Of a stretch of 64,000 nt of DNA, positions 11,452 to 43,178 are shown piece after piece. Each line of letters opens with the position of its first letter. Positions within the stretch are counted from its first letter, which is position 1. The notes beneath the pieces were generated by a model. The model did no database searches. It was given only the letters and a program-made list of their open reading frames with translations, and had not been told where the DNA came from. Origin of the DNA: Verrucomicrobiales bacterium (GTDB taxonomy: Bacteria; Verrucomicrobiota; Verrucomicrobiia; Limisphaerales; UBA11358). A program made the translations under genes and the position numbers. Location of the stretch: assembly GCA_028712475.1 (NCBI GenBank), contig JAQTQB010000006.1:1-64000 (forward strand), read 5' to 3'.

Positions 11452-12969
11452 TTATTGGTTTTTCGCCGCTGCCGGAGGCGTTGTTGCGGCGGGGGTAGTG
11501 CCACCATTAGGAAGACCCCCGGTCGGATTTTCACGACCGTTTTGGCTGATAAGATTTTTCTCCTCACTGTCCGTGCGTCCCGTTGGCAGGACTTCACCTT
11601 TGCGGAACAGATCGAACATCGTGGCCTGACTGATGGCTCCAGCCTGCCAGGCAGAGACGATGGCGGTCAGTTCCAAGCTGGTCAGACCTTTGGCGGTGAA
11701 GTCGGTGTTAATCAGCAGCAGCACCAAATCTTCACTGACATCTTCCGGGAATTGTTCGGTGCTGTTCCACCAGTAAACCCAGCGGAGGACTTGGCTGATG
11801 GAATCAGACACGGACAAAGCCAGTGTCATCAAGATGCTGTTTTCACCGGCTTGACGCAGCTCGATGGCATCAGCGGTTTCACCGACACGTTTGGTGTCTT
11901 CCAACATGCGGGAGCCAAGCACAGCCATCAGCCGTTCATCACGATCTTGGGCATTTTCAAACGTGGACAACCCATGGCCTTTGAATTCCAAAAATCCAGC
12001 CACGGCACCAACCGTGTCCGATACCCAAGCCGTGCTGCTGCCGATACGAAGTTCAGTCGTCTTGTCGAAGCCAGAAACCCAGGCGGTGGGCAGAGCAGTG
12101 AAATGCAAACCATGCTTGTAGTCAGCATCCAGCCGGTAGTGATCCAGATTGACGGAAATAATGTCGGCCAAAGGCATTTTGTCCACGTCGGGCAGGGAGT
12201 TGCGTGGACCGTGAAACACAAACGGAATCAGCGGCAGCGGTTTGCCGAGACGGAGCGGCACACGACTTTCTTGCAATTTCCATTCCAATTTACCATGTTT
12301 GGATTTCCGTTGCCCGTTTGCTTGGTGGCCGCCCGCAAGGATCCAAAGTTCGACAACGTAACGTGTGCCGCCATCGGCCAGCGATTCCAGCTTCAACACC
12401 CGGATGGTTTCAGTTTGTTCCAAAACAAACGGATCGTCACCATGGGGGCCGTCCGCAAGGACTTCGCGCAGGGCAATCAGCGTGACCACGTTTCGACCGT
12501 TGATGCGTTGCGTCTGCCAGTTCAAAATATCTTCGGCCACATAGCGGACAACGTAGGCACGAGATTCACTGTCAGATTGCCAGTCAATCAGCGTGCCACA
12601 CCGGCCCACGGCGAGAATTTCACCGACGACACCCTTGCAAAAAGTAAAAAGTGAAGTCCCCATCAAATCCACGTCATCAGTGAACACACGAATGGCACCA
12701 CCGACGCCAGCCTGACGGTCGGGCAGTTTGACTTCGGGATCACGGCGAAAGAGCAGCCCAAGGAAACCATCGCAGGTGCGGCTCGTGGCGTTGAAAAAAC
12801 AGGCGCGGGATTTGTAGCCGAGATATTCATTGTCCGATTGCGAGTCGAGACGCGGCAGATATTTTACACCAGCGGATTTTACGGCATCCTCACCCGCGAT
12901 GACATCACGGGCGCGGAGCCAGGCCGGGAGGCTGGCGTCGTAATCAGGATGTGTGGAGTTGACCGGCAC
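11452..12969 (-). CDS. Phage portal protein (DUF4055-type)
   Basis: 505 residues matching the DUF4055 group, which serves as the portal in many podo- and siphoviruses. The N-terminus (HPDYDASLPAWLRARDVIAGEDAVK, then YLPRL) is the family signature; the C-terminus is an Ala/Pro/Gly-rich tail. Twelve copies should form the vertex ring through which DNA enters and leaves. It heads the head cassette on the minus strand, with roughly 3 kb of mostly non-coding, palindrome-rich DNA and a few small genes separating it from terminase. Confidence 0.85.
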   Translation of the reverse strand: MPVNSTHPDYDASLPAWLRARDVIAGEDAVKSAGVKYLPRLDSQSDNEYLGYKSRACFFNATSRTCDGFLGLLFRRDPEVKLPDRQAGVGGAIRVFTDDVDLMGTSLFTFCKGVVGEILAVGRCGTLIDWQSDSESRAYVVRYVAEDILNWQTQRINGRNVVTLIALREVLADGPHGDDPFVLEQTETIRVLKLESLADGGTRYVVELWILAGGHQANGQRKSKHGKLEWKLQESRVPLRLGKPLPLIPFVFHGPRNSLPDVDKMPLADIISVNLDHYRLDADYKHGLHFTALPTAWVSGFDKTTELRIGSSTAWVSDTVGAVAGFLEFKGHGLSTFENAQDRDERLMAVLGSRMLEDTKRVGETADAIELRQAGENSILMTLALSVSDSISQVLRWVYWWNSTEQFPEDVSEDLVLLLINTDFTAKGLTSLELTAIVSAWQAGAISQATMFDLFRKGEVLPTGRTDSEEKNLISQNGRENPTGGLPNGGTTPAATTPPAAAKNQ

Positions 12970-13219
12970 GCGGCGACTCTAGCACGGGTTTTTCAAGAAC
13001 TTTTCGCGCGGCAAAGCGACTGACGCACACTTGCGCACGCATTGTCTTCACATGCGAACAGGCGCGAATAATTTTGCTGAAGATTTTATTTGACGTTATT
13101 TGGTTTCAGCCGCTTGACAGGCTGTCAAGCAGGCCGAGGTTAAAATTGGCTGGTGTGGACGTGATTTTCGGTTGACGGTTGCAGGAGACAAGAAGGGGAA
13201 ATTGGGGATGTTGAGTCGG

Positions 13220-13384
13220 TCAGTTGGTAGATACGCCCACGCCAGCCATTTTTCTTCCAAGGGGGCGGCGCAAAAGTCCAATCACTGATGCTACTGGCGG
13301 CTTGCAGCACTTGACGACTTCGTAATCCAGCGTCGCAACCCAACGCTGCAATTTCCGTTTGGCTCTCGCAGCGTCTTCATCCAT
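13220..13384 (-). CDS. Possible small protein
   Basis: A 54-residue frame from ATG 13384 (MDEDAARAKRKLQRWVATLDYEVVK...) has plausible protein composition at its start. Its upstream extension to 13432 runs through the left arm of the long inverted repeat and is therefore unlikely to be coding. No family recognised; could be chance. Confidence 0.3.
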   Translation of the reverse strand: MDEDAARAKRKLQRWVATLDYEVVKCCKPPVASVIGLLRRPLGRKMAGVGVSTN

Positions 13385-13395
13385 GTCACCACTCC

Positions 13396-13587
13396 GTAGC
13401 CCTGTGTATGTGTGTGTCAGCTCCGTCGGCATGATGAGTTGGGGCGTGTTGCATCTCTCGCGCCAGCGCAGCGGGACAAAGGCGGCTGCGCTGTCACGAG
13501 AGATGCGACACGCAGAAATTGACGACGCTGGCGCGTGCCATCATGCCGGCTGCGCAATGTTGATGACACACACATACACAGGGCTAC
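13396..13587. repeat. Long nested inverted repeat A
   Basis: Four stacked arm pairs share one centre. 13396-13419 pairs with 13564-13587 (24 bp, perfect), 13427-13436 with 13539-13548 (10 bp, perfect), 13446-13460 with 13497-13511 (14 of 15) and 13464-13472 with 13485-13493 (9 bp, perfect). As RNA or single-stranded DNA it would fold into one rod about 190 nt long with internal loops. Confidence 0.88.
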
Positions 13588-13876
13588 TACGTTACGTTCG
13601 CAGCCATTGGTTGCGCTTGCAGTGCAGCATTGCCAGTCGTTACTACCAGCGCGTCACGTTTCCAGTCCGGTGCTGGGTCGCGTGCGGGCGTCCACCGCAG
13701 TTCAGGCCGCAGTTGCCGTGGTGGTCGCCGTTCGTCTGGCATTGGTTGCACATCACCGGCTGGCTTCGCGCATCACGCCGTCGCCAGCAGCCTTGAGCCG
13801 TTGCCTGGCTCTCCAAAAGCAGCGCGGCCCGCTGACTTGCATCAGCGAGCCGCTAATTCTTCAAGCCTCACGACAG

Positions 13877-14179
13877 TTACGCCGCCACCAGCACTTTGAC
13901 TTCCCGTTCCAAGCGCAGTCCCAACTTGTCAGACATGATTTCCAAGTCGTAATGCGATTGCAGGTTTAGCCAGAATTGCGCCGACATTTTGAAAAACCGC
14001 CCCAAACGCAAGGCCGTGTCCGCCGTGATTGCCCGTTCACCCTTCACAATTTCGTTGATTCGGCGCGCGGGCACGCCAATGTCTTTCGCCAGCCGGTATT
14101 GGCTCAAGCCCATCGGCTTTAGAAAATCCTCTTCCAGAATTTCGCCCGGCGTGATGTTTTCCAGCAATTTGCTTTTCAT
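13877..14179 (-). CDS. higA: HigA-family antitoxin
   Basis: 100 residues of the addiction-module antidote HigA family: it opens with the family-typical TPGEILEEDFLKPMGLSQYRLAKDIGVPARRINEIVKGERAITADTALRL, an XRE helix-turn-helix in which SQYRLAKDIGVPARRINEI is the HTH. It neutralises HigB by direct binding and represses the operon through palindromic operators. The toxin gene lies upstream (higB first), the usual order for this family, with six bases between the genes. Confidence 0.92.
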   Translation of the reverse strand: MKSKLLENITPGEILEEDFLKPMGLSQYRLAKDIGVPARRINEIVKGERAITADTALRLGRFFKMSAQFWLNLQSHYDLEIMSDKLGLRLEREVKVLVAA

Positions 14180-14185
14180 AGAATT

Positions 14186-14464
14186 TTAATGGTAATCCAC
14201 AATTTCCACTTCGTGTGCGCCCGATTCCCAGCGGAAACATATCCGCCATTGATCGTTGATGCGGATGCTATGCTGTCCGGCGCGTCCGCCTTTTAATGCT
14301 TCCAGCCGGTTGCCCGGTGGCACCGCCATGTCCAGCAGTTGCGTCGCAGCCTGTAATTGCAATAGCTTCCGCCGGGCGGTGCGTTGGATGTCGGTTGGCA
14401 GTCGTCGCGACACCTGGCCCCGGAATATCTTTTCCGTCTCCGCACATGCGAAGTTTTCAATCAT
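14186..14464 (-). CDS. higB: HigB-family toxin (RelE superfamily mRNA interferase)
   Basis: 92 residues from ATG 14464, the normal HigB length; the upstream extension to 14503 is rejected. Family features are the start MIENFACAETEKIFRG, the segment RKLLQLQAATQLLDMAVPPGNRLEALKGGRAGQHSIRINDQWRICFRW and the end VEIVDYH. HigB cleaves mRNA on the ribosome. The pair sits in a region otherwise without genes and probably serves to stabilise the element. TATA-like ACTATATTTACC just upstream (14510-14521) may contain the promoter. Confidence 0.92.
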   Translation of the reverse strand: MIENFACAETEKIFRGQVSRRLPTDIQRTARRKLLQLQAATQLLDMAVPPGNRLEALKGGRAGQHSIRINDQWRICFRWESGAHEVEIVDYH

Positions 14465-14769
14465 TCTGCCCACCACCATAACGCACCGTGTTATTAACGT
14501 CAAGCGTTACTATATTTACCATCATCCGCCGGCAATTTTTGCGTTTCGGCAATTCGTGCGTCGTTTGTAATTCGACACAGGCAGCCAGGTGAAGTTGTGA
14601 GCCGTGGATAATGCGAATGTTTTTTGAAATCCGTGCGCCCTCGAAAGACAAAGTTAGTTCGCGATGCTCAATAGATAAATTAGTTCGCGCTTCGTTCCTG
14701 ATTCACTATGCGCTCAACAATGACGAACGCGCCACCCACTCACGGTTTCCATTGACGAATGCCATGTGG

Positions 14770-14898
14770 CGCGTGCGCGGACGCCTGACGCTCATGCCCG
14801 TGCAGCCCGCTAACGCGGTCTGCTCCGGGCACCGGCACGCCATCTTTGGTTAGTCCTAACGTCACCCTCGGCGTGCCTTTCGCTACCCCGCGCACGCG
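14770..14898. repeat. Branched inverted-repeat structure E
   Basis: An outer 11-bp perfect stem (14770-14780 with 14888-14898) encloses two hairpins. 14796-14830 has nested GCCCG/CGGGC, GCAG/CTGC and CCGC/GCGG stems around TAAC. 14834-14877 has GGCACGCC/GGCGTGCC outside and GTTAG/CTAAC inside. Together they make a three-way junction. Confidence 0.7.
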
Positions 14899-15390
14899 GC
14901 GGCCGTCGCAGGTTATTGAATGGTTTTCATGCCATCCAACCGTTGCTGGTTGGCGGATGATTTTAGGCGCGGGGTCAGGCATTGAATCCTCGTCGCTTCG
15001 CTCCTCGTCGGGGAAAAGCAGGACAGCCCGGCGTCAGCGAGCCGACACTTGCGCTTGGTCGGGGACAGGCGCAAGCGCCGAACCCACTCCCGCGCGCCAA
15101 GTATCGGCACGGTTCCGACGCGCCCGATGACTGACTCGACATTTTCCGCCCGCTCCATTCGCTGCCGCACTCTGCTACACCGATTGCGCAGGATGCTCTC
15201 GCTCATTCCGACGGTCGCAAACCGGCGAGACAGTCAAAAAACGTCGGCGCGTCCCGAAGGATTCCAAAGGCCGCGAGACTTCGTCCGGCCAAGGCGCAGC
15301 ATTACGGCGCGAGGCTCCGCCTGTCGCCGAGGACAAAGCATTAGCCCGCGATGCTACGCACGGGCAAGACGACGGCAATAGTCGTGAGAT

Positions 15391-15449
15391 CGGTCATTTC
15401 TGCACCGCCTTCATTTCGCAAGCTACATTGCAGCGGACAGAAACGACCG
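15391..15449. repeat. Inverted repeat D
   Basis: 15391-15402 (CGGTCATTTCTG) pairs with 15438-15449 (CAGAAACGACCG) at 11 of 12 positions around a 35-base loop. Confidence 0.6.
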
Positions 15450-15473
15450 AACTCACTCCGAAAACAAATTTAG

Positions 15474-15582
15474 TCTGACACCACGGCGGCAGGCTGCGTG
15501 CAGTTCTGCCGAGCGCTACCAAATACGAAGGCAAACATCGCGTCGCAGCCCGCGCACTACGCTCTGCCGTCGTGGAGTCAGA
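15474..15582. repeat. Inverted repeat C
   Basis: 15474-15492 pairs with 15564-15582 at 17 of 19 positions, with a second inner stem GGCTGCG (15492-15498) to CGCAGCC (15544-15550). The two mismatches leave the stem mostly intact. Confidence 0.65.
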
Positions 15583-15634
15583 TAGATTGGCTTCGCGCTG
15601 GCGCGGCGAAGCCGGAAACGAACCCATCGGCTTC

Positions 15635-15955
15635 GCGGCGGAATTGGCATGAAGGAACTGCCGCACGCTACGCTTCTCACTTCGTTGCGAGGCTGGGCGT
15701 GCGGCTTTGCTTCCGGGATGGCACACAACACACATTGTCCGTTTGGTCGTTCAAAGTTCACTCCCACCTTAATTCTTTTCGCGCCGACAACTCCCCGCGC
15801 GCGGGACCCTTCGGCGCGGAATTAAGGTCAGACAATGTGGCGTTGTGTGCCATCCCGCCGCTGCACTGTCACGCTGACTGCTAATCCGCACCTTCGCGCT
15901 CGTGCGGGCAGTCATCGCGCCAGTTGGCGGGCATCCTTCATGCCAATTCCGCCGC
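15635..15955. repeat. Giant nested inverted repeat B (321 bp)
   Basis: Six arm pairs share one centre near 15799. 15635-15656 with 15934-15955 (22 bp, perfect); 15657-15667 with 15901-15912 (one bulged base); 15714-15729 with 15842-15857 (16 bp, perfect); 15732-15739 with 15831-15838 (8 bp); 15766-15774 with 15820-15828 (9 bp); 15780-15787 with 15811-15818 (8 bp). A side hairpin 15660-15668/15697-15705 competes with one stem. This cannot be chance and is the most extended structure in the window. Confidence 0.9.
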
Positions 15956-16216
15956 TCCGCCTCTCATGCAGCCAGTAGAGTTTGCTCGCTACGCTCGAAT
16001 GGTTGACAGAATTTTTGTGTCGGCAGCTTCGTTTTCAAGTCCGGTTTTTTCTGCTCGCCGTTTCTCTCCGTCGCCCTCACGGCGTCGCCGACTGCACCAG
16101 CCCGCCCGCTCGTGGCTCCTTCTGAAGAGCACTTCCACGGGGGAGGGCTGGCGGCTCCGCTTTTTCGTGAAGGGCGACGGACAGAAGACGCACAGCAGAG
16201 CAGTAAAAAAAAGACT

Positions 16217-16645
16217 ATGAAAACTACATCACAAAAAAAATCGGGACTCGGGAGCAGATCCGCACAGTTGAGCAGCACAAACACACCGGAAGCGCAGAGC
16301 GCAGTTGCGCCCGCAGCCGTTGAGAAGAAAGACAATCGCTTGCCGATTGACACCGAGGCGCGGAAGAAAAACCGCACCTTGCCCACTCCAAAAGTTTTGG
16401 AGCTTTTGAAAACCAGCAATCCGGGTTTGTTCAATCTCGCCGAGGTTGTCGGCAAGTGGGTTTGGGTGACGTTCCGCGAGACGCCCGCGCCGGAGTTGCG
16501 GCAGATTTTGGCGCAACTTGGCTTTCACTGGAATCGTGAGCGGCAGGCGTGGCAGCACCCTTGCGGCGCATTTCGTTTGCGCGGTTTCCAAGACCCGCAC
16601 GAAAAATATGCCAGCTACTTTCCCGCTGACAACAAGACCGCCTGA
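16217..16645 (+). CDS. Hypothetical plasmid/phage-type protein
   Basis: 142 residues from ATG 16217, chosen because a purine-rich AAAAAAAAG leader precedes it and the upstream frame is in palindromic DNA. The N-terminal half is a low-complexity Ser/Ala/Lys-rich tail; the C-terminal half has a small folded unit, GKWVWVTFRETPAPELRQILAQLGFHWNRERQAWQHPCG, a motif (WVWV...LGF.WN..R.AW) seen in many small mobile-element proteins of unknown function. First of four plus-strand genes. Confidence 0.65.
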   Translation: MKTTSQKKSGLGSRSAQLSSTNTPEAQSAVAPAAVEKKDNRLPIDTEARKKNRTLPTPKVLELLKTSNPGLFNLAEVVGKWVWVTFRETPAPELRQILAQLGFHWNRERQAWQHPCGAFRLRGFQDPHEKYASYFPADNKTA

Positions 16646-16691
16646 CACCAACGGGGCGCGGTGACAGCGCGCCCGTTTTTCACCACACACC

Positions 16692-16889
16692 ATGAAAAGG
16701 AACAAACGTCGCTTGCCGTTGCCGCAGCACGAGTTCGGATTTACGCCGGACACGTTCAATTTGTTCGCCGAGGTTTCGCTGGACGGTGAGCGCATCACCA
16801 GAGAGCAGGCCGAGGCTGCACAGCGACGCCGCGAGGCGGAGGCAGGGCAGGCCGCGTTTTTTCACACCGAGGAATTTTGCCATGACTGA
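16692..16889 (+). CDS. Small hypothetical protein
   Basis: 65 residues: basic start MKRNKRRLPLPQHEFGFTPDTFNLF, then a Glu/Arg/Ala-rich helix (REQAEAAQRRREAEAGQ). The preceding gap includes GGGGCGCGGTGACAGCGCGCCCGTTTTTC (hairpin plus T-run, 16653-16680), a possible weak terminator or attenuator after the upstream gene. Overlaps the next gene by eight bases, so coupled translation is likely. No recognised family. Confidence 0.6.
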   Translation: MKRNKRRLPLPQHEFGFTPDTFNLFAEVSLDGERITREQAEAAQRRREAEAGQAAFFHTEEFCHD

Positions 16890-17118
16890 TTTACACAAGA
16901 CCATCCGCCGCCGTTCGCGTGACCAGTTCGCGCACTATCGCAGGCGCATTGTCGTTTCACTTGAACCCGGAGACGTGATCGGGATGCGGCTTGAGCGCAC
17001 CCGCACCACCTACCGCGCACCGCTCGCCAGTGTGTTCCGCACTTTGGCCGACTGGCACGCACGCGCCGAGAGCAAGGCCAAGCGGGAAGCCCGCAAACTT
17101 AAACGCTTGAATCACTGA
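16882..17118 (+). CDS. Small hypothetical protein
   Basis: 78 residues from ATG 16882, rich in Arg: MTDLHKTIRRRSRDQFAHYRRRIVVSLEPGDVIGMRLERTRTTYRAPLASVF..., with a lysine/arginine tail. The middle (IVVSLEPGDVIGMRLERTRTTYRAPLASVF) is a beta-strand-like unit common in small plasmid genes of unknown role. A nucleic-acid-binding function would fit the charge but is not shown. Lies between two coupled neighbours. Confidence 0.6.
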   Translation: MTDLHKTIRRRSRDQFAHYRRRIVVSLEPGDVIGMRLERTRTTYRAPLASVFRTLADWHARAESKAKREARKLKRLNH

Positions 17119-17122
17119 CACC

Positions 17123-17533
17123 ATGAACACAAACGAATCACCATTCGGCCCCGTCATTTACAGCTACACCAGAGCGCAGGCCGTCGCCGACGGCGTGCAA
17201 GTTGATGTTTCAAAAGTTGCCGCCGAAGCGGGCATCCGCTTTCCGGTATTTCTCACGCGCACCGTTTTTGATGCGTTCGTGACCGTGCCGGAAGGCGTGA
17301 CCGGACAGGATGAAGCCGGACGCCTTTGGGATATTGTCTGGATGCTCCGTTTCGCCATCCTTCGCAGCCGCCCAGGTGCGGCAGGTGCAGCTTGCACCCG
17401 CATCCCGGTTGCGTTCTATGTCCGCAACGACAACCGCGCAGCGCGGCTTGTCAAACTCATCGCAACTTGCGGCGCACTGGACATTGACGACCCGCAGCCC
17501 GCTATCACCGTGATGATGCCCGACGAAGATTGA
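17123..17533 (+). CDS. DUF6573-family protein
   Basis: 136 residues: FGPVIYSYTRAQAVADGVQVDVSKVAAEAGIRFPVFLTRTVFDAFVTVPEGVTGQDEAGRLWDIVWMLRFAI is the signature of DUF6573, a family common on plasmids and integrative elements of many phyla. Function is unknown. It starts four bases after the upstream stop and ends the plus-strand set, followed within 25 bases by a rho-independent terminator. Its plasmid associations, together with opposite orientation to the phage genes, suggest this set was acquired separately. Confidence 0.8.
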   Translation: MNTNESPFGPVIYSYTRAQAVADGVQVDVSKVAAEAGIRFPVFLTRTVFDAFVTVPEGVTGQDEAGRLWDIVWMLRFAILRSRPGAAGAACTRIPVAFYVRNDNRAARLVKLIATCGALDIDDPQPAITVMMPDED

Positions 17534-17699: not shown

Positions 17700-19121
17700 T
17701 CAAAAGCCGCGCAACTTCCGTTGCGTGACCGCGCGCGCTTTCGTCGCCACCAGGTAGCGCAGTGAATCCGCCGCGTCGTCGCCGCCGATGCCGTCCTCGT
17801 CGGCGTCAATTTTCAAAACATCTTCGGGCCGGTTCGGATCATGTTGCAACGCCGGCAAAGTTTCCAGCAGCCGCCCGCACCGCTTGTGAATGAAAAGTGT
17901 CGGACGAATCCCGGCCTCGACATCGCCGAACCGCTGCAAAATTTCCGCCCAGCCGTTCACGCGGTCGGTGTTCGCGCAGCGCAGTGAGATTCCAAGTTTC
18001 GCATATTGCGCGGCAATCGTTGTCCCGTCGCTCTGGCGTGAAAACACATCCGCGCCGGCCACAAAGCGGGCCAGCGCCCGCCCGCCACCGTTCACTTCTT
18101 CATTCTTCATTCTTCCTTCTGCATTCAAGCCGTGCCGCGCCAGCATCGCCTTGACCGCCCCCGCGTGACGTTGTGGCAGCCACAGACGTTCCGCGTGTTC
18201 GTCCACGATGAAAATGTTTCCATCGCCATCGCGACAGCCGAGCAAAACAGCGGTGTAATGCGCAAAACCGTAATCCAGCGCCGCAAACCATTCCACCGCC
18301 CGCGTGTCGTCGAAATCAGACAGGGCGTGAACCTCGCGGCGAAAGTTGGTGAAGTATTGGCCGGCGGCAATATCCCAATCGCCGTCGAGGTATGCTTTGC
18401 GCATCCAACCGGTGTAAGACTGGAGCGTGGCTTTGTATTCGGCATCAACAAACTGGTTGTCATCCACCGTCACCTGGACATGGCGCGTGGTGGTTTCGCG
18501 TTTTTCCAGCCACGGCACGATGATCATGCCCCGATACCACTGATGCCCCACGCCGCCGGGATTTGTGTCAAAATACATCCTTGGACGCCAGTTCGGTTTG
18601 CTCGTGCGCAAACAGCCGCGAATCCCCTGCAATCGGGAAAAAGGCAGTTGCGTGGCCTCGCCGAGATTGATCACGTCGTATTCAATCCCCATATACTTCT
18701 CGATGTCGCGTTCGTCCTTGTAATTGCCAACGATGACGCGTGAGCCGTTCGGGAAGTTCAATTCACTCCGTTGCGCCCGCCATTCATGCCGCAGTTTCGA
18801 CAGCAGTTTGCGGCGCATGTCGTCAAATTGCTCGGCGGCGCCCTTCAGGATTTTGCGCAAAATCAGCACCTTCAGCCCCGGCACGCGCTGGCAGTCGTCC
18901 GCGAAAATCTGGCAATAGACCCCGTGGGTTTTTGCCGAGCCTTTGCCGCCCCCGGTTGAAATCATCTTCGGGCCGTTGGCCGAATCCGCCTCCCGGCAAT
19001 ACGCGGCGAACTTCAATTGCTTTGGCTGCAACAGCAATCCGGCGCGGACGAAGTTTTCCATCTGCGCCTTCGGGCAGCCGGCGCGGCGACCGGCCAGAAA
19101 ATAGCGTTCCCACGGCGTCAT
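17700..19121 (-). CDS. Terminase large subunit
   Basis: 473 residues with the two-domain TerL layout. The ATPase has a Walker-A-like STGGGKGSAKTH (about 55-66), Walker B YDVINLGEATQL (about 149-159) and the coupling motif FDTNP (about 184-188). The nuclease domain begins with LDYG (about 282-285), then FIVDEHAE (about 304-311) and a C-terminal acidic DADEDGIGGDDAADSLRYLV. It should pump DNA into procapsids and cut it. A dispersed ATTCTTCATTCTTC repeat (18097-18127) has been taken into the frame, adding residues about RMKNEEVNGGG between nuclease strands, so activity might be affected. Confidence 0.9.
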   Translation of the reverse strand: MTPWERYFLAGRRAGCPKAQMENFVRAGLLLQPKQLKFAAYCREADSANGPKMISTGGGKGSAKTHGVYCQIFADDCQRVPGLKVLILRKILKGAAEQFDDMRRKLLSKLRHEWRAQRSELNFPNGSRVIVGNYKDERDIEKYMGIEYDVINLGEATQLPFSRLQGIRGCLRTSKPNWRPRMYFDTNPGGVGHQWYRGMIIVPWLEKRETTTRHVQVTVDDNQFVDAEYKATLQSYTGWMRKAYLDGDWDIAAGQYFTNFRREVHALSDFDDTRAVEWFAALDYGFAHYTAVLLGCRDGDGNIFIVDEHAERLWLPQRHAGAVKAMLARHGLNAEGRMKNEEVNGGGRALARFVAGADVFSRQSDGTTIAAQYAKLGISLRCANTDRVNGWAEILQRFGDVEAGIRPTLFIHKRCGRLLETLPALQHDPNRPEDVLKIDADEDGIGGDDAADSLRYLVATKARAVTQRKLRGF

Positions 19122-43093: not shown

Positions 43094-43116
43094 TGGTGCC
43101 CACGACAGGACTTGAA
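43094..43116 (+). repeat. Attachment site, right copy inside tRNA-Leu
   Basis: Same 23-bp sequence as 7141-7163, here forming the 3' end of the tRNA gene (T-arm 3' strand, acceptor, CCA). The integration restores a complete tRNA, consistent with the intact gene seen. Confidence 0.9.
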
Positions 43117-43178
43117 CCTGTATGATTTTACTCACTAGAACCTGAATCTAGCGCGTCTGCCAATTCCGCCACGTGGGC
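43094..43178 (-). tRNA. tRNA-Leu (anticodon CAG)
   Basis: 85 nucleotides including an encoded CCA. The acceptor stem GCCCACG pairs with CGTGGGC, there is a long variable arm typical of class II tRNA, and the anticodon stem CTAGA/TCTAG holds the loop TTCAGGT with anticodon CAG (reads CUG, leucine). It is the integration target of the element. Confidence 0.95.

Follow-up and report, generated by a model that had tools for sequence, protein, structure and literature searches.

Comparison across related prophages shows that the outer stem of a 192-nt palindrome at 13396-13587 is an inherited base-paired structure: the two arms remain complementary although their letters, and with them the encoded amino acids, differ between loci. 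In all loci measured (17 and a further three), the 3' arm of this stem begins at the start codon (ATG, once GTG) of a small + strand gene, here called M. Control of this start codon may well be the main role of the palindrome, a reading in which our confidence is about evenly balanced. The palindrome sits between the portal gene and a + strand gene starting at 16217 (interval 12970-16216) of the window, i.e. the whole stretch of 64,000 nucleotides that was analysed. The features under discussion, with L numbers denoting individual loci, are the following.

11452..12969, minus strand: portal protein (phrog_145)
13363..13395, + strand: short conserved block directly 5' of the M stem, ending in CCACTCCG, with matches in L003, L080, L083 and L086
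13396..13419, + strand: 5' arm of the M stem, 24 bp, perfect
13427..13436, + strand: 5' arm of the middle stem, partner of 13539-13548, paired with other letters in L080, L083, L086 and L146
13444..13472, no strand assigned: first arm of hairpin H
13485..13513, no strand assigned: second arm of hairpin H
13539..13548, + strand: 3' arm of the middle stem, partner of 13427..13436
13563..13796, + strand: ORF M, 77 aa, an orphan family conserved in the order
13564..13587, + strand: 3' arm of the M stem, whose first base is the T of M's ATG and which holds the first M codons
13824..13853, minus strand: terminator-like hairpin between higA and M, one of 5 such sites where chance predicts 5.1, a similar hairpin being visible in L003
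13877..14179, minus strand: HigA antitoxin (cargo)
14186..14503, minus strand: HigB toxin (cargo; PF05015)
14504..16216, no strand assigned: conserved structured region with little codon periodicity, including the 321-bp palindrome 15635-15955
14643..15000, no strand assigned: D1 element, with compensatory helices, the most conserved part of 14504-16216
16217..16645, + strand: conserved small gene, oriented against the late genes, used as coding control
17700..19121, minus strand: terminase large subunit (phrog_979)

The outer stem and gene M

A preliminary description of this DNA had seen a perfect 24-bp outer arm around a segment that itself folds back, with all arms nested in a single rod, and each part of this picture holds. 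The segments 13396-13419 and 13564-13587 are complementary at 24/24 positions across a spacer of 144 nt, the enclosed 144 nt fold back through inner arms at 13444-13472 / 13485-13513 (29 nt, 90% complementary, 12-nt loop), and a middle stem, CGGCATGATG/CATCATGCCG at 13427-13436 / 13539-13548, closes the rod. Folded as RNA, the 192 nt reach -128.6 kcal/mol compared with -75 +/- 4.3 kcal/mol for 200 dinucleotide shuffles, none of which was equally good (0/200; z = -12.55). This shuffle test, together with the covarying arms found in 20 loci by the comparative check, bears out the earlier statement that such a structure cannot arise by chance. The same element occupies this site in independent MAG and IMG/VR assemblies, which makes an artefact of assembly or duplication, as had also been considered, unlikely. 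Exact inverted repeats of at least 20 bp with arms no more than 450 bp apart occur in the 64-kb window only at 13396-13587 and 15635-15955, and its own genome has the former only once, the additional match there being that of the palindrome to its own other strand. Neither arm is followed by a T run, and the terminator-like sites (5 found, 5.1 expected by chance) do not include the palindrome; an intrinsic terminator is thereby ruled out.

In the relatives, the paired segment on the 3' side starts with the second base of the start codon, and its partner lies upstream across a loop of 10-13 nt in most loci, of 144-145 nt where hairpin H is nested inside it (the window, L080, L083, L086) and of 75 nt in the broken L003. 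Uninterrupted M stems extend up to 27 bp, with 11 bp in L071, L075 and L096, 9 bp in L046 and 2 bp in L003. Over the first 17 positions in 20 loci, 312/340 cells (92%) are Watson-Crick pairs, compared with 55% on average, and never more than 71%, in 5000 trials with arms swapped among loci. At least two Watson-Crick types are found at 14/17 positions, and the 20 loci hold 11 distinct stems, some GC-rich and some nearly pure A/T (L046, L050); G.U pairs on the + strand account for 2/340 cells. The stem-coded N-terminal columns of M are 36% identical whereas the body of the protein is 65% identical, which argues that it is pairing, not the peptide, that is conserved at the M stem. In these 20 loci the start codon thus lies at or within a stable stem of which the pairing rather than the sequence is conserved, i.e. 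the marks of a sequestered start codon. The counts derive from two sets. Of 25 M matches in the first, six were removed as repeat retrievals of a locus already included, and L105 and L044 (partial) did not enter the stem counts; the second set comprised 24 further matches. In seven of these 24 the start of M could be placed, each time with a stem of at least 14 bp; four of the seven repeat counted sequences (L080, L081, L083, L086) and three are new (L146, L151, L152). The remaining 17, which were partial, shifted or could not be placed, were left uncounted. RNAalifold, applied to six nested palindromes, paired 67 columns, 12 of them with double changes, its covariation term being unfavourable (+4.93) in this small and uneven set with many gapped or broken pairs.

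That the region almost lacks genes, as had been stated, proved wrong, since a + strand ORF (13563-13796) with coding evidence starts inside the palindrome. In a six-frame translated search of 17 loci, the + frame 13326-13793 sums to 1616 bits compared with at most 1035 for the other frames, and substitutions concentrate at third positions of the M frame, with p down to 6e-11 for 13636-13695. Judged by its codons, M is a coding gene. Codon periodicity and frame support also rule out, for 13563-13796, that the whole region is purely non-coding RNA, an interpretation that is kept for 14504-16216. Fifteen intact M members of 76-97 aa share 17 invariant residues, including a core PWW. The gene occurs in 10/49 genomes of the genus and 20/293 genomes of the order, i.e. 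in 14/118 genera, some matches being fragments. M gave no meaningful match in Pfam, NCBIfam or PHROGs and none in the phage and plasmid records searched, and its profile reached at best E 0.096 against solved structures (PDB). An AlphaFold2 model consists of two helices, 3-40 and 55-64 (mean pLDDT 75), and a fold search of viral structures with this model yielded none at E <=0.001 and eight weak matches. Upstream of M's ATG the frame stays open over a further 2 to 123 codons, so that an alternative M start may be possible.

The prophage cargo site and its structured elements

By its portal and terminase genes the window is prophage DNA, and the neighbours of the palindrome are minus-strand phage head genes, i.e. 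those for portal, scaffold, major head protein and terminase large subunit. Portal relatives were found in 20/49 genus genomes, in 29 IMG/VR loci and in 50 genome-contig loci, most of these 50 coming from MAGs named Verrucomicrobia subdivision 3, Limisphaerales or otherwise Verrucomicrobia. Own-genome copies (L001, L002, L008) were excluded from the comparisons of region conservation and neighbour genes among relatives. The interval between the portal and the + strand gene spans 0.9 to 4.7 kb in the 23 relatives measured. As compared across these loci, the terminase-portal interval is a conserved, highly structured and exchangeable cargo site: it holds HigBA in the window, L047 and L068, Fic in L067 (a protein that also matches PADLOC SoFic), SRAP in L101 and L042, and a DNA/RNA non-specific endonuclease in L041 and L092, with 5/10 cargo-site ORFs scanned having no Pfam match. 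The observation that the two palindromes flank HigBA is therefore true of the window but incidental, as relatives carry Fic, SRAP or endonuclease instead, and among loci with a measured M hairpin HigBA is present only in the window and L068. Because the cargo varies in this way, HigBA is not the palindrome's partner and is ruled out as the reason for the palindromes. Also conserved in relatives is a block of small + strand genes (16217-17533; one is DUF6573, PF20213) that is located between terminase and portal and oriented against the late genes.

Hairpin H, made up of the palindrome's inner arms, is a helix of 16 bp built around a conserved core, GCCAG with CTGTCA. It stands separately upstream of the M stem in most loci, and it is nested in the M-stem loop in the window, L080, L083, L086 and L146. 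Its set comprises 16 loci, 15 of which were used for covariation (L017, near-identical to L085, was omitted, and L146 is partial there). In these 15 sequences the covariation score is 0.281 compared with 0.073 for shuffled sequences (0/500), with every slid control far lower, and 27 cells are changed on both sides compared with 7.7 after shuffling; the weaker measures were unremarkable, i.e. 6 double-change pairs versus 4.4 (65/500) and 12 further pair types versus 10 (96/500). Pair 6 is C.A in 14/16 and T-A in 2/16 loci, which read as U.G and U-A on the minus strand. A scan of 293 genomes with the H-motif pattern gave about as many matches as a reversed control pattern and was therefore set aside. 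The weak or pattern matches L004-L007 were on inspection not accepted as homologues of the M hairpin, and L004 and L006 look like another element: L004 1300-1560 and L006 60-260 represent a hairpin-rich intergenic element common to two genus genomes, a short stretch of which resembles 13526-13557.

Beyond the cargo, many relatives match stretches of 14504-16216 at about 65-94% identity, and this region shows little periodicity, a few windows (e.g. 14864-14953) being uneven. In its D1 element, 11/26 helix pairs carry double changes in a 38-row alignment. Matches to D1 came from 23/49 genus genomes, a single genome having as many as 14, and one interval often contains two D1 copies that flank M or cargo genes (as noted for L067, L070, L071, L079 and L101). 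Taking D1 as a gene was rejected, as its ORF is open in some relatives and broken by a 2-nt shift in others, with inconsistent periodicity. In one case (L124) the sequence adjoining D1 is not portal; this locus (G035:C32:74590-77644) is a standalone copy of the structured region after a stretch that by eye resembles a Fic-family gene. The 321-bp palindrome at 15635-15955 is part of the same conserved structured region, and its counterpart in L124 pairs with changed letters. A search of the 64-kb window with Rfam 15 matched solely a tRNA at 43097-43178, 30 kb from the palindrome; the E-value mode added two chance matches that stayed under the gathering score and were not to GOLLD or ROOL.

A question that bears on function is which strand is read as RNA. 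Fifty loci contain 133 inverted repeats, compared with 5 in shuffled sequences, and on the + strand their arm mismatches are A.C (73), G.T (10), C.T (57), A.G (6), A.A (34) and T.T (5), with related sequences counted repeatedly. On the minus strand the same mismatches are mainly G.U, G.A and U.U, i.e. such as RNA tolerates, and the minus strand of the region also folds to lower energy than the + strand. A stricter count over 24 intervals yields only 12 A.C and 5 G.T, and the core of 12 loci alone yields 17 A.C and 12 G.T. Set against shuffled controls, the strand difference gives p 0.004 for D1, p 0.38 for the leader and, with reversed sign, p 0.38 for the core 15020-15380; that a significant preference is limited to D1 counts against a minus-strand reading of leader and core. 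The consensus helices of D1 contain 7 G.U and 6 A.C, i.e. no bias, and mismatches in the outer M stem are too few to indicate a strand. It is likely that H acts as minus-strand RNA, and the neighbouring structures may, less surely than H, be read from the same strand.

Possible roles of the palindrome and related systems

The geometry of the stem, the covariation of its arms and of H, and the coding evidence for M all argue for start-codon control of M. The palindrome would then comprise the leader of a small + strand phage gene together with its start region; in the mRNA of this gene the stem would lock the start codon and the first codons in double-stranded RNA, and M would be made only once the hairpin opens, for example by a bound protein, RNase III-type cleavage or an antisense RNA. 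H and the neighbouring structured region, by comparison, would act mainly as RNA of the opposite strand, within a late transcript running from terminase to portal. Passing through the site, such a transcript would carry the same hairpin, antisense to M, so that M would be silenced while the late genes are on. Against start-codon control counts the near-absence of + strand G.U in the outer stem, which is uncommon in helices maintained solely as + strand RNA, and so does the finding that M is broken in L003 and L096. A more tentative proposal, which we would think rather unlikely, is that the interval encodes a new class of very large, modular and structured late-strand RNA in which D1, H, the M stem and the 321-bp rod are shuffled around cargo and the M stem doubles as start-codon lock for a protein encoded antisense; if so, one palindrome would serve both strands.

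It is also possible, if doubtful, that the palindrome is simply a domain of a large minus-strand structured RNA extending from terminase to portal, either a phage non-coding RNA or a late-mRNA leader, with M being incidental. Such an RNA would account for the strand asymmetry of mismatches, including those in H, for the lower folding energy of the minus strand, for the double changes in D1 and for a core with little codon periodicity. It fits poorly, however, with a stem that ends at M's start codon in all loci measured, with a leader that has no clear strand preference and with a module order that varies (M precedes D1, follows it or stands between two copies of it), unlike one rigid RNA. Since M is short, cationic and Trp-rich with predicted helices, one may also think of an antisense pair like type I toxin-antitoxin systems, in which M would be a small Arg/Trp-rich toxin silenced by its own hairpin and by an antisense RNA with a complementary loop. 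Both strands of the palindrome necessarily form the same hairpin and the loop end GATGA is conserved, as such a pair would have it, yet M matches no toxin family in Pfam, NCBIfam or PHROGs and a search for a promoter of the antisense RNA found none (2 promoter-like sites versus 1.1 expected), and we regard this arrangement as improbable.

Little probability attaches in our judgement to a palindrome that operates purely at the DNA level, i.e. as a cruciform or ssDNA hairpin in replication or packaging, or as arms made identical by template switching, with no RNA role. Its position is fixed at the start codon, and H and nearby structures carry RNA-like mismatches. Near-perfect arms with hardly any G.U or A.C would nevertheless suit this explanation, and template switching can homogenise inverted-repeat arms, as described in PMC8604942; homogenisation alone, however, leaves the presence of the stem in all measured loci unexplained. 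The ends of an inserted MITE or transposon remnant, finally, come to mind with inverted arms that flank 144 nt and with an M/H module that is missing from some relatives (e.g. L043, L089). This origin is highly improbable, and in effect ruled out by the single copy in the own genome and by arms that differ between relatives, co-varying with no common terminal repeat; no target duplications are visible at the edges.

Returning to start-codon control, hairpins at start codons are a kind of element already known. In the RNA phage MS2, coat protein binds an operator hairpin that holds the replicase start codon, and there, as in the M stem, it is the 3' side of the hairpin that holds the start codon of a phage gene. 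The MS2 hairpin, however, is short and has fixed letters, whereas the M stem comprises up to 27 uninterrupted bp with free letters and fixed pairing and belongs to a tailed DNA phage, in which it is a candidate operator. Type I toxin-antitoxin mRNAs likewise encode a small protein whose start is sequestered in a stable structure, as is predicted for M; M, by comparison, has 76-97 aa and matches no family. For an element of this kind, the M stem is unusual in its length, in near-perfect pairing with almost no G.U and in its free exchange of letters, and also in having a second conserved hairpin nested in it and in its setting within an unclassified structured cargo site. No description of the element was found by title or abstract among open-licence PMC papers, and the structured region had no counterpart in Rfam or in the phage records searched. 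What had been a bare palindrome would thus become a gene-control element that can be tested and that has an orphan protein family of its own, in 14/118 genera sampled in the order; it also directs attention to a structured cargo site, conserved yet unclassified, in prophages of Verrucomicrobiota. It is, moreover, an unusually clear case of inherited pairing that leaves both RNA letters and the encoded N-terminus free to vary.

Passages of PMC12286853 describe GOLLD and ROOL as ornate, large, structured and covarying RNAs of phages and prophages, often near tRNA islands. The region studied here resembles them, as portrayed there, in being structured, covarying RNA-like sequence in phages and prophages (PMC12286853), but unlike them it has no Rfam match, lies away from a tRNA island, contains a coding gene and places long hairpins in a terL-portal cargo site; neither of the two signs of GOLLD/ROOL membership, i.e. 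a covariance-model match and a tRNA-island location, was found. Perfect inverted repeats that overlap coding sequence are also described, in parts of PMC6649704, as coding palindromes in nematomorph mitochondrial genes. The palindrome at M shares this overlap but, unlike those palindromes as reported in these parts (PMC6649704), it takes in only the start of the gene, keeps a fixed place and shows compensatory change.
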